Below are positions 1 to 6,856 of a stretch of 64,000 nt of DNA, in pieces. Every line of letters begins with the position of its first letter. The first letter of the stretch is position 1. The notes under the pieces were generated by a model that was not told where the DNA came from, searched no databases, and saw only the letters and a program-made list of their open reading frames with translations. Position numbers and translations under genes: made by a program. The stretch is from Azospirillum thermophilum (lineage in GTDB: Bacteria; Pseudomonadota; Alphaproteobacteria; Azospirillales; Azospirillaceae): positions 945,501 to 1,009,500 of the forward strand of contig NZ_CP029353.1 of NCBI RefSeq assembly GCF_003130795.1. Direction: 5' to 3'.

Positions 1-1614
1 GTCGACCAGGGCTTCGCCGCCGGCAATTCAGCCCTGCTCGACCGCGCGCTGCTCGTCCTGATGGGCGTCATCGCCCTGATGGCCGGCGCCACCTACAGCC
101 GCTTCTACCTGGTGAGCTGGATCGGCGAGCGGGTGGTGGCCGACATCCGGCGGGCGGTCTACGACCATGTGCTGACGCTGTCGCCCGGCTTCTTCGAGAC
201 CACCAAGACCGGCGAGATCCTGTCGCGCCTGACCACCGACACGACGCTTCTTCAGGTGGTGGTCGGCTCCTCCGTCTCGATCGCGCTGCGCAACACGCTG
301 CTGTTCCTCGGCGGCACCGGGATGCTGCTGGTGACCTCGCCCAAGCTGACCGGGCTGGTGGCGCTGGTGGTGCCGCTGGTGGTGGCGCCGATCATCCTGT
401 TCGGCCGGCAGGTGCGCCGGCTGTCGCGCGCCAGCCAGGACAGGGTCGCCGACGTCGGCTCCTTCGTCGAGGAGACGCTGGCCGCCATCCGCACCGTCCA
501 GGCCTTCACCCACGAGGCCATCGACCGCGCCCTGTTCGGCCGCCGGGTGGAGGAGGCGTTCGACGTCGCCATCCGCCGGGTGAAGGTGCGCGCCGTCATG
601 ACGGTGATCGTCATCGTGCTGGTCTTCGGCGCGGTCGGCACCATCCTGTGGATCGGCGGCCATGACGTGCTGGCCGGCCGCATCTCGGCGGGCGAGCTGT
701 CGGCCTTCGTCATCTATGCCGTGGTGGTCGCCGGATCGGTCGGTGCCATCAGCGAGGTGATGGGCGACCTGCAGCGCGCCGCCGGCGCCACCGAGCGGCT
801 GGTCGACCTGCTGGCGACCCGGTCGGAGATCCGTCCCCCGCCTCGCCGGTGGCGCTGCCGGTGCCGGCGCGGGGCGCCCTGTCCTTCGGGCAGGTGCGCT
901 TCCACTACCCCTCGCGCCCCGACTGGGCGGCGCTGGAAGGCTTCACGCTCGACGTGGCGCCGGGCGAGCGGGTGGCGCTGGTCGGGCCGTCGGGGGCGGG
1001 CAAGTCCACCGTCTTCCAGCTCCTGCTGCGCTTCTACGACCCGCAGGCGGGGTGGTGCGGCTGGACGGGGTGGACGTGAAGGCCGCCGATCCGGTGGAGC
1101 TGCGCAGCCGCATCGGCCTCGTCGCGCAGGATCCCGTCATCTTCTCCGCCAATGCCTGGGAGAACATCCGCTATGGCCGGCCCGGCGCCGGCGACGCCGA
1201 GGTGCGTGCCGCCGCCGAGGCGGCCCACGCGCTGGAGTTCCTCGACGCCCTGCCGGAGGGATTCGACACCTTCCTCGGCGAGAAGGGCGTAAGGCTGTCG
1301 GGGGGCAGCGCCAGCGCATCGCCATCGCCCGCGCCATCCTGCGCGACCCGCCGGTTCTGCTGCTGGACGAGGCGACCAGCGCACTCGACGCCGAGAGCGA
1401 GCGGATGGTGCAGGACGCGCTCGACCGGCTGATGCATGGCCGGACCACGCTGATCGTCGCCCACCGCCTTGCCACCGTGCTCAACGCCGACCGCATCGTG
1501 GTGATGGAGCAGGGGCGGGTGGTGGAGACCGGGACCCATGGCGAACTGGTGCGCCAGGGCGGGCTCTATGCCCGTCTGGCCGCGCTGCAGTTCGATCAGG
1601 CGCCGGCGGTCTGA
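1..1614 (+). pseudogene. ABC exporter (fused membrane and ATPase domains), 5'-partial, frame broken three times as sequenced
   Basis: The gene enters from the left edge already in frame, so its start is outside the window. Residues 1 to about 270 form the six-helix ABC exporter membrane domain ([17 protein letters not shown] is typical). The ATPase domain follows in pieces: Walker [10 protein letters not shown] in frame 3 (near 985-1010), the Q-loop region in frame 2 (1052-1300), then the ABC signature, Walker [12 protein letters not shown] and H-loop IVAHRL in frame 1. Three one-base contractions, at C835-839, G1049-1052 and G1300-1305, explain all frame changes; adding one base to each gives a continuous protein of 538 residues with every ABC motif. 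It belongs to the MsbA/lipid or multidrug exporter family in the inner membrane; the substrate cannot be told. Errors in the read are more likely than gene decay, since no motif is otherwise damaged. Confidence 0.85.
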
Positions 1615-4002: not shown

Positions 4003-4761
4003 TCAGAGTTCGAAGAGAAGCTGGGCCGGGCCACCGGGCTTCTTGCGCTTCTTCGCCGGCTTCCTTCCGGGCGCCGCTTCCTCGCCGGCGGCGGGCTTCG
4101 CCGTTTCGGCCGCCGTCGGCTTCGTCTCCTCGGGCGGCTCAACCGGTTCCGGCGTCGGCTCCTCGACCGGTTCCGGCGCCGCCTCGGGGATGGGGGCGGC
4201 GGCCAGTTCGAGCAGAGAGGGTTCCGCGTCGTCGGGCTTGCCCGCTTCCGGCAGGGACTCCTGCGGCTTCGCCTCTTCCGGCAGGGCCTTTCCCTCCGGC
4301 GCCTGTGCTGCGGCGGGAGGCTCCCCGGCCGCGGCGGGCGGCTCGGCGGCGGCCTCGGCGGAAGCGGCGACCTCCTCCGTCTTCTTCCCCGCCTTCCTGC
4401 GCGGTGCGCGCGGGGTGAAGCCGACGCCCTGTTCGGCGCGCTCCAGCGCCTTGTCGCGGGCGACGGCTTCCGGCGCGTTGGGGTCGCCGTCCAGCCACTT
4501 GCCGCGCTTGATGACCTCGTTCACCCGGCCCTGGTTGACGCCGAGCTGGAAGGCGATCTCCTGCTGGGTCATGTCGGTGGTCTGGTGGAGGTGCAGGATC
4601 TCGGCCGCCAGCTCCGGAGTCATCTTGCGTCCGGTGACCCGGCGCGCCGGCCGGATGGAGCGGCTGGCCCGGTCGCGCTCCCGCAGCGATTCCAGGATCG
4701 CCAGGGCCTCCGTATTGCCGGCCGCCTTCAGCGCCTCCTCGAACTCCTTCAACGTCGCCAT
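4003..4761 (-). CDS. Helix-turn-helix protein with long Pro/Glu/Ala/Lys-rich tail
   Basis: The 252-residue protein has an N-terminal region with a clear HTH, roughly residues 47-88: TPELAAEILHLHQ then MTQQEIAFQLGVNQGRVNEV, ending in RGKWL. It looks like a sigma-70-region-4-like or resolvase-like DNA-binding helix pair. From about residue 115 the protein becomes low-complexity and rich in E, P, A and K, with repeats such as EPVEEPTPEPVEPPEE, and ends in a basic patch (KPAKKRKKPGG) and the hydrophobic LLFEL. The start ATG at 4761 has an AGAGGA site upstream. It is a probable DNA-binding regulator; its targets are unknown. Confidence 0.75.
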   Translation of the reverse strand: MATLKEFEEALKAAGNTEALAILESLRERDRASRSIRPARRVTGRKMTPELAAEILHLHQTTDMTQQEIAFQLGVNQGRVNEVIKRGKWLDGDPNAPEAVARDKALERAEQGVGFTPRAPRRKAGKKTEEVAASAEAAAEPPAAAGEPPAAAQAPEGKALPEEAKPQESLPEAGKPDDAEPSLLELAAAPIPEAAPEPVEEPTPEPVEPPEETKPTAAETAKPAAGEEAAPGRKPAKKRKKPGGPAQLLFEL

Positions 4762-5005
4762 TCCTCTACCCCGCCAAGTCGGCCGTTCCCCCGGGGGCGC
4801 GGCCTGCTGTCCTGAACCGTTCCTATAGATAAGGCAAATTGACGGGAATTTGACCGTCCGTCTTGGGAGTATCCGACGATTCGTTCAGCCGCCCGCCCGG
4901 CGGATTGGGACGTCCGGCGCGGAGATTGGGACGGAGCGGCAAGTCCTGCTCCGCCTTCCCTGCTATCGTCGGAACATCGAGACGACCCGAGCGGGAGCCA
5001 GGACC

Positions 5006-5242
5006 ATGAGCGACGAGACCAAACCCGAGGCGACGGCGGAGCACGCGCCGCAGCAGGCCGGCCCGCAGAGCGGCGAACTGTCGGACGAGGCGCTCGACGC
5101 GGTGGCCGGTGGCGCGACCTATACGATCAACATCGTCAACCAGTCGCCGGACACCAACCGCTTCCTGGTCTTCCAGAAGCCCGCCCCGGCGCCCGGCAAC
5201 CATGCCCCGATCGCCTGGAGTCCCTTGACCCCCTGGCGGTGA
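5006..5242 (+). CDS. Small double-glycine-leader peptide, RiPP/bacteriocin-precursor-like
   Basis: This 78-residue protein starts at an ATG with CCAGGACC just upstream; the longer open frame from 4850 has no ribosome binding site. Residues 1-36 look like an NHLP/Nif11-type or double-glycine leader: acidic and ending ELSDEALDAVAGG, with the Gly-Gly at 35-36. The remaining 42 residues form a compact core with INIVNQSPDTNRFLVFQKP and a Pro-rich end (SPLTPWR). There is no Cys, so lanthionine or disulfide chemistry is not expected. No modification enzyme or C39-peptidase transporter lies nearby; the ABC exporter at the left edge shows no peptidase domain in the visible part. Function is unknown. 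The stop is 17 bases from the end of the convergent pentapeptide-PilZ gene. Confidence 0.6.
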   Translation: MSDETKPEATAEHAPQQAGPQSGELSDEALDAVAGGATYTINIVNQSPDTNRFLVFQKPAPAPGNHAPIAWSPLTPWR

Positions 5243-5258: not shown

Positions 5259-6742
5259 TTACCCCGCCATCTTCTGGTGGTCGAGGAAGGCGGTCTTCAG
5301 CAGGGCCTTCAGGTCGTCGCCATACTGGTGGAACCGGACGGAGAGCTGGCCGCGCTCGTCGTCGCGGTGCAGCACCACCAGATGGGCGGCGGCCTGCACC
5401 TCCTTCCGGTCGGTCATCACCACGCGGGCCGGGAACATGTCGCCGCGGCGGAAGGGCTGGTCGGGCGCCAGCAGGCACAGCCCGCCGACCGACCAGTTGC
5501 GGGTCGGGAAGACGCCATGCTCGGTATGGACCACCATGCCGGGCCGCACGAAGCGCTTCTGCCGCCGCCGCTCCTCCAGCGGGGGAGGGGGAAGGGAACC
5601 GCGGCCTCCGGCACCTTCAGGTCGGTGCCGGCGAGGATCGTCCGCTTGAAGGTGGCGCCGCGCACCACCGCCTCGCCCATGCGCGCCTCGCTCAGGTCGG
5701 CATCCGAGAAATCGGCGCCCTCGAAGTTCGTCGGCCAGGCCCGTCCGCCGGCCAGCACCGCCGGCCGGGCATCCAGCCCTCTCAGGACGGCGTGCGACAG
5801 GAAGGCGCGCCGCAGCGTGGCGCCGCGCAGTGTGGCGCCGCTGAGGTCGGCCTCGTCGAGGTCGATGTAGGACAGCTCCGCCATCTCCAGGCTGGCCTTG
5901 ACCAGCCGCGCTCCCGGCAGGCGGCAGCGCCGCAGCCTCGCCGCGGCCAGAGTCCGCCCCTCCAGATCGGCGCCCGCCACCGAGACGAGATCCAGGTCCA
6001 GCCGCCTGCCGTCCGCCCCCTGGCTGTCCACCCACCGCTCGTGCGTCGCCACCAGCTCCAGGAACTCGGCGACCGGCATGGCGGTGTAGACCGGCGGTAC
6101 GATGGCGTCGGGCGGCAGCGCGAAGGGGATGTAGGTCCGCTGCAGGGTCGCGTGGTCCATCACCGTGTTGCCGAAGGTGGCGCCGTCCAGCGTCGCCCCG
6201 CCGAAATCGGTGCCGACCAGCACGGCCGAGGTCAGCTCCGCCCCCGTCAGGTCGGCGTCGTTGAGGTCGGCCCCCGTCAGGTCGCAGCCGGCGAAGTTGG
6301 CGCCGGCCAGGATGGAACGCTCCATCTTCGCTTCGGTCAGCCGGGTCGTGCCGCCGCGGGTGGCCCTGCCTTCCGAGTCGGTCATCAGTTCGCCCGCCCG
6401 GAAATCCGCCCCGCGCAGGTTGGCGTCGGTCAGCTGCGCCCGGTGCAGGTTGGCGCCGCGCAGATCGGCGCCGGCCAGCATGGCGCCGGACAGGTTCACC
6501 CCCTCCATGTCGGCACCGAACAGGTCGGCCTGCGACAGGTCGGCCTTGACCATGCGGGTGCCCGACAGGTTGGCGCCGGCCAGCTTGGCGGCCACCAGGG
6601 AGACGCTGTCGAGGTTCAGGCGGGAGAGGTCGCGGAAGCTGAGATCGGCACGCCGCCCGCTGCTCGGCCGCTTGAGCCACTTCTGATGGGCGAGGATGAT
6701 CGCGCGCAGTTCCTCGATCTCTTTCGGGTCGCGTTCGGCCAT
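5259..6742 (-). pseudogene. Pentapeptide-repeat protein with C-terminal PilZ domain; one frameshift as sequenced
   Basis: The N-terminal part (about residues 1-385) is two blocks of A(D/N)LxG pentapeptide repeats, each introduced by a short helical module (LAHQKWLKRP near residue 18 and THERWVDSQGADGRRLDL near the middle). After the C-run at 5581-5585 the frame changes by one base; restoring a base joins it to about 110 residues with the PilZ signature: RRRQKRF (RxxxR) followed by NWSVGG (N/DxSxxG). The repaired protein is 494 residues. PilZ domains bind cyclic di-GMP, so this is a predicted c-di-GMP-responsive right-handed beta-helix protein. No signal peptide or membrane segment is visible, so it is likely cytoplasmic. 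Its first two modules match the paralogue at 37510-38823. The break is probably a base-call error. Confidence 0.8.
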
Positions 6743-6856
6743 CGGTCGGGGGGTTCCGCAGCAGGCTCAACAAGGACGGGCGGTCGCCGGCAGAATACCG
6801 GTTCCGGCGCGCCGCGTCACGCGATGGTGGTAGGCCCTTCGTGCAATTCGCTGCAA

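Follow-up and report, generated by a model that had tools for sequence, protein, structure and literature searches.

The window analysed here, 64,000 nt in length, lies on contig C2 of a genome of 6.78 Mb in 9 contigs (G000). The gene under study, P0001, occupies positions 5006-5242 on the plus strand and consists of 78 codons followed by a stop. It encodes a 36-residue leader (5006-5113, +), which is acidic with a pI of 4.05 and eight Asp or Glu residues, and a 42-residue core (5114-5239, +), which has a pI of 9.99 and contains no Cys. This split in charge is consistent with an exported precursor. The leader ends in a double-glycine (GG) box, ELSDEALDAVAGG (5075-5113, +). The initial annotation had described a 78-residue frame with an acidic leader ending in GG and a 42-residue core without Cys, and translation and composition bore this out. 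A putative ribosome-binding site, GGGAG, can be read 8 bases 5′ of the ATG (4993-4997, +). A scan limited to sigma-70-like promoters found none upstream of P0001, and shuffled sequences also averaged 0.0. A start at an upstream in-frame TTG, which would lengthen the protein to 130 aa, is disfavoured, as the metagenomic relative P0002 starts at the same Met as P0001 and the Tistrella-type relatives described below align from that Met. The G+C contents of the three codon positions were 0.65, 0.54 and 0.91, which is the pattern of local coding frames; those of the two overlapping antisense frames were 0.82/0.68/0.57 and 0.81/0.52/0.65. By its translation, its relatives and its coding pattern, P0001 is a real gene.

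P0001 lies between a gene for a small HTH protein (4003-4761, minus strand), which is divergent from it and whose Pfam HTH matches are below cut-off, and a stretch encoding pentapeptide repeats and a PilZ domain in two reading frames (5259-6742, minus strand). Neither is an exporter or a maturase, and no modification enzyme was recognised by eye among the neighbours read, as had been stated earlier. The c-di-GMP-binding gene that had been predicted end to end with P0001 also proved real: it is the PilZ gene (PF07238; 25 bits, cut-off 22.5), which is tail to tail with P0001 and 16 bases away. A c-di-GMP link through this neighbour was rejected, because the gene is on the opposite strand and the same neighbour pair is found in the congener G026 without P0001. 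The HTH gene was matched in 39 of 45 genomes; 30 loci (29 congeners and the own genome) were taken with flanks of up to 1.5 kb, and tblastn saw the gene in 28 of these. In G026 the PilZ and HTH genes are neighbours, as in the window, but are separated by 167 bases, compared with 497 in the window. Reading of the six frames by eye and tblastn gave no sign of P0001 in the G026 gap, so the gene appears to have been either gained here or lost in G026. The pentapeptide-repeat and PilZ parts, which are separate frames in the window (5259-6773, minus strand), form one open frame in G026 (L020:2106-3401); the split is either a real shift or a sequencing error. Elsewhere in the window (61-1614, +), an ABC-transporter-like gene apparently runs across three frames when read by eye (ORFs 61-1614, 849-1079 and 1052-1432), suggesting that the assembly may contain small indel errors.

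The leader had been taken for the double-glycine type that steers peptides to peptidase-exporters, and this is supported by the consensus match of the box, by an HMM control and by the residues at the recognition positions. Compared with NHLP motif 2, ELSDEQLDAVAGG (Haft, Basu and Mitchell 2010, Table 3, PMC2887384), the P0001 box is identical in 12 of 13 letters, and it shares 11 of 13 with the Nif11-type (N11P) consensus of the same table. These counts refer to the NHLP/Nif11 leader motif ELSDE(Q/E)L(D/E)AVAGG. According to Bobeica et al. (PMC6363468), C39 (PCAT) substrates carry a GG, GA or GS with hydrophobic residues upstream of it, at −4, −7 and −12, GA being an accepted variant, and in the LahT structure it is the residues at these three positions that occupy the C39 groove. 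P0001 has V-4, L-7 and L-12. Against an HMM of six GG leaders that did not include its own, P0001 scored 36.5 bits. No shuffled P0001 leader reached this score (0 of 20,000; 19,612 scored, best 14.1), nor did any of the 466 other window ORFs of at least 30 aa (best 4.9), so the box match, judged by these scores, is not due to chance. Five strong matches (E ≤ 1.1e-8), P0001 among them, came from a scan of the own genome with the box alignment; this is no independent test, because all five were rows of the model.

Searches of NCBIfam and Pfam found no Nif11 or nitrile-hydratase leader domain above cut-off in P0001, which argues against export. The match to TIGR03793 (15.5 bits, cut-off 50.9) covered residues 21-36 only. 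TIGR03798 was absent from the NCBIfam matches listed, no Pfam family was matched, and the match to the CTB family bacteriocins NF038167 (residues 24-42) reached 17.5 bits against a cut-off of 32. P0001 resembles the NHLP/N11P precursors, as described in PMC2887384, in the C-terminal motif of the leader, in the GG and in the presence of an NHLM export trio in its genome. However, the leaders of those precursors are 69 or 87 residues long (Table 3) versus 36 in P0001, and their nitrile-hydratase and Nif11 domains are not matched above cut-off in P0001. Its core is conserved across the family whereas theirs are hypervariable, and it is not clustered with an exporter as they are. P0001 can credibly be read as an export precursor of a known kind that has a short leader and an unusual core.

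Only two C39 matches were found in the own genome, on contigs C5 and C8, which confirms the earlier statement that no C39 transporter is adjacent to P0001 on C2. The C5 exporter (L054:9658-11850) scored 992.5 bits against TIGR03796 (cut-off 853.3), and beside it TIGR03797 gave 825.2 bits (cut-off 709.4) and TIGR03794 gave 227.7 bits (cut-off 156.2; residues 130-434 of a 444-aa frame). All three members of the NHLM export trio at G000:C5 are thus above the curated cut-offs. The initial annotation's description of the peptide as an orphan therefore applies to the locus, where no exporter adjoins P0001, and not to the genome, since the trio is encoded on another contig. The C8 protein fitted HlyB-type transporters best and passed none of the 25 cut-offs among the matches listed. 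A suitable exporter for P0001 is, by these profile matches, present in trans, and the C5 exporter may be the one that serves it; the lack of linkage between P0001 and the exporter genes argues against this.

Directly upstream of the C5 exporter are three precursors with the boxes ELSDADLDAVAGG, ELSDSELDSVAGG and EMSDADLDAVAGG, identical to the P0001 box in 10-11 of 13 letters; one of these precursors lies at L054:7463-7762. By eye these precursors appear Nif11-like; one scored 15.6 bits against TIGR03798 (cut-off 32.3), and no NCBIfam family was matched by the other two at E ≤ 0.01. They lie with an AraC-like regulator and the NHLM export trio in one stretch (L054:5581-14824), in which no maturase was seen. 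Pro and Phe are very abundant in the core of one of these precursors, FPPSFLFPFFPIFPIFRR. YcaO was matched by three pieces at two places in the own genome, and a frame of 1,092 aa on C3 contains its one LanC-like domain. The LanC-like frame adjoins two Nif11-like precursors (L075, L077, L098; G000:C3:97572-99533), and the locus is probably a lanthipeptide cluster.

Short relatives of P0001 were few. A profile search found 8 proteins of 72-82 aa in total, P0001 included. Among 385 genomes of the class 8 were matched, and by our reading of the matches four were real: the own genome and G303, G077 and G205, all three of one other genus, Tistrella. The other matches were rejected. That in G036 and a second one in G077 are a Nif11-like and an NHLP-like leader, respectively; those in G367 and G232 seem, on inspection by eye, to be chance hits; and that in G374 is a protein of the PF27136 type described below. 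By tblastn the gene was found on plasmid pTM3 of Tistrella mobilis. A scan of named genomes found none with P0001 and only pTM3 with the alignment, both scans using short peptide patterns. A search with P0001 turned up no true relative in 36 congeners or in 24 further genomes of the class; a match in G035 was rejected because it is out of frame within a 516-aa open frame and has an internal stop. The absence from the congeners argues against export.

P0002 has the same length as P0001 and 69% identity to it across all 78 residues. Its box ends in GA and retains V, L and L at −4, −7 and −12, in favour of export. The Tistrella-type relatives comprise nine sequences of 72-82 aa (P0004-P0010, L038 and L039). 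They share with P0001 the N-terminal stretch, the pattern DEALD..GG, a core of 42-44 aa and the lack of Cys, but their C39 recognition positions, unlike those of P0001, are polar or small. All nine retain GG and all nine read Q, A and A at −4, −7 and −12, because they have one residue fewer before GG; this argues against export. Q/A/A is not a general habit of the Tistrella genome G303, because all 13 other GG boxes read there have V, L and L/I/F. There were 19 box matches in this genome, of which six were not counted: L074 (which ends in GS), the match to the short protein, and four that were weak. G303 encodes an NHLM C39 exporter of 1041.6 bits (cut-off 853.3) and a second match just under the cut-off (850.8 bits). 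The Tistrella-type box may be vestigial, or else the family may have two states.

Eight residues (T, I, N, N, Q, F, Q and P) are invariant in all ten aligned members of the family, and core length is 42 residues in eight of the 11 members, the other three having 44. Between P0001 and three Tistrella genes dN/dS was 0.26, 0.60 and 0.36, values that are rough because dS was 0.88-1.74; for the core alone it was 0.36, 0.68 and 0.53. Among the Tistrella genes themselves, core dN and dS were 0.085/0.080, 0.119/0.081 and 0.063/0.170, so that dN was near or above dS in two of the three pairs, on very few changes.

The weak match in G374 (E 0.006) was to a 223-aa leaderless protein. A search with this protein gave 225 proteins at E ≤ 0.001, query included; the sources of the matches listed include Rhizobium, Phaeobacter, Caulobacter and Novispirillum, and many of these matches, but not every one, bear the Pfam label PF27136.1. 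The matches listed give no indication of what the family does. P0011 (source name Phaeobacter porticola), a close relative of P0012, lacks the label. In G374 the gene is one of two leaderless tandem genes, similar at the start by eye (L061:7029-8474). The PF27136 label was found on the short relatives P0005 and P0006 and not on P0001, P0002 or P0007-P0010. An alignment of the short proteins (10 rows) was compared by hhalign with one of 35 of the 120 proteins of ~221 aa among the matches listed; the probability was 89.3 (P 2.1e-6), with 43% identity over 28 columns, restricted to the start. In the predicted structure of the long protein (pLDDT 93.0), a mostly beta fold, these columns are strands 1 and 2. 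The short protein alone gave no confident fold (mean pLDDT 51.8, from only 10 aligned sequences).

The PF27136-labelled proteins of ~221 aa (e.g. P0012) thus share with P0001 the hairpin TIN..N......F.FFQ.P at their start. They are leaderless and all-beta, whereas P0001 has only the part that matches strands 1 and 2 and a C-terminal end of its own; the full domain is absent from it, 28 columns being aligned. The profile comparison and the Pfam label in relatives support an alignment of the first part of the P0001 core with the first beta-hairpin of this family. The initial annotation had stated that the core matches no known precursor class. This has to be qualified, as the core does have relatives: its family aligns with the hairpin of the labelled proteins, the label being absent from P0001 itself. 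Of the two options that the initial annotation had left, a new class of secreted peptide or a non-RiPP family using the leader, the second therefore fits better than a new class of modified peptide.

We consider it slightly more probable than its opposite that P0001 is a short-leader precursor of the NHLP/Nif11-export kind, cut and exported in trans by the C5 NHLM system and probably unmodified. The NHLM exporter would accept the GG box in its C39 peptidase, cut after Gly36 and send out the basic, Cys-free core of 42 residues, which would begin ATYTIN and, if unmodified, have a monoisotopic mass of 4,685.4 Da. The core would correspond to the first beta-hairpin of the larger all-beta PF27136 family, standing on its own. 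P0001 would then be like other GG-leader/C39-exported systems in its GG leader, C39 exporter and apparently unmodified core, and would differ from them in that the exporter is not adjacent and the core has no family match.

Rather less probable, though to be taken seriously, is that P0001 is an intracellular small protein whose GG box is an unused leftover of a precursor ancestor, the hairpin TIN..NQ...FQ.P being the conserved unit. The box is out of C39 register in nine of nine Tistrella-type members while the hairpin is conserved, with its eight invariant residues in 10 of 10, and the distant ~221-aa relatives have no GG leader (0 of 35 aligned). Homologues without the GG leader had been named earlier as evidence against a precursor; this is partly the case, as these distant relatives show no such leader and the Tistrella type, which retains GG, has its recognition positions shifted out of register. 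Against an unused box, those of P0001 and P0002 are intact at every recognition position, and the right kind of exporter is encoded in the genome. We regard it as unlikely that P0001 is a decaying fragment, a first PF27136-type hairpin fused to a leader and kept by chance without function. The rarity of the gene, the lack of a confident fold alone and the dN of the Tistrella cores would agree with decay, but core length is steady, the frame is open in two genera and a metagenome, and dN/dS between the genera is below 1, also for the core alone. Processing of Ser/Thr in trans by a YcaO or LanM enzyme of the genome, which would make P0001 a RiPP, seems very improbable. In its favour are the YcaO matches and the LanC-like domain, and leader similarity is, according to PMC2887384, only indirect evidence of modification class; yet the core cannot form lanthionine because it has no Cys, the LanC-like frame adjoins precursors of its own, and the neighbours of P0001 include no recognisable maturase. 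Beyond these readings, it is conceivable, at a very long shot, that the secreted hairpin core acts as a strand donor or mimic that inserts into PF27136 proteins of neighbouring alphaproteobacteria, blocking or reporting on them. It would then represent a precursor class whose active part is a piece of the target's own fold.

Exported peptides are usually detected by long Nif11 or nitrile-hydratase leaders, or by adjacency to an exporter or maturase. The same is found in PMC2887384. A lone short-leader precursor with its exporter elsewhere in the genome evades both detection rules. If export of P0001 is confirmed, other lone GG-box genes merit re-examination, and a family of folded proteins would become tied to peptide secretion. 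Two further frames of the own genome were observed. A Nif11-like precursor on C2 (L063:1435-1818; G000:C2:1835333) has the box ALSDDELDRISGG and scored 27.3 bits against TIGR03798 (cut-off 32.3). On C1, a candidate second short-leader peptide beginning MTDEKEQPAGRPVALTDSELDAAAGG (L081:1462-1770, E 2.9) overlaps an apparent transposase gene on the opposite strand and has a poor codon pattern.
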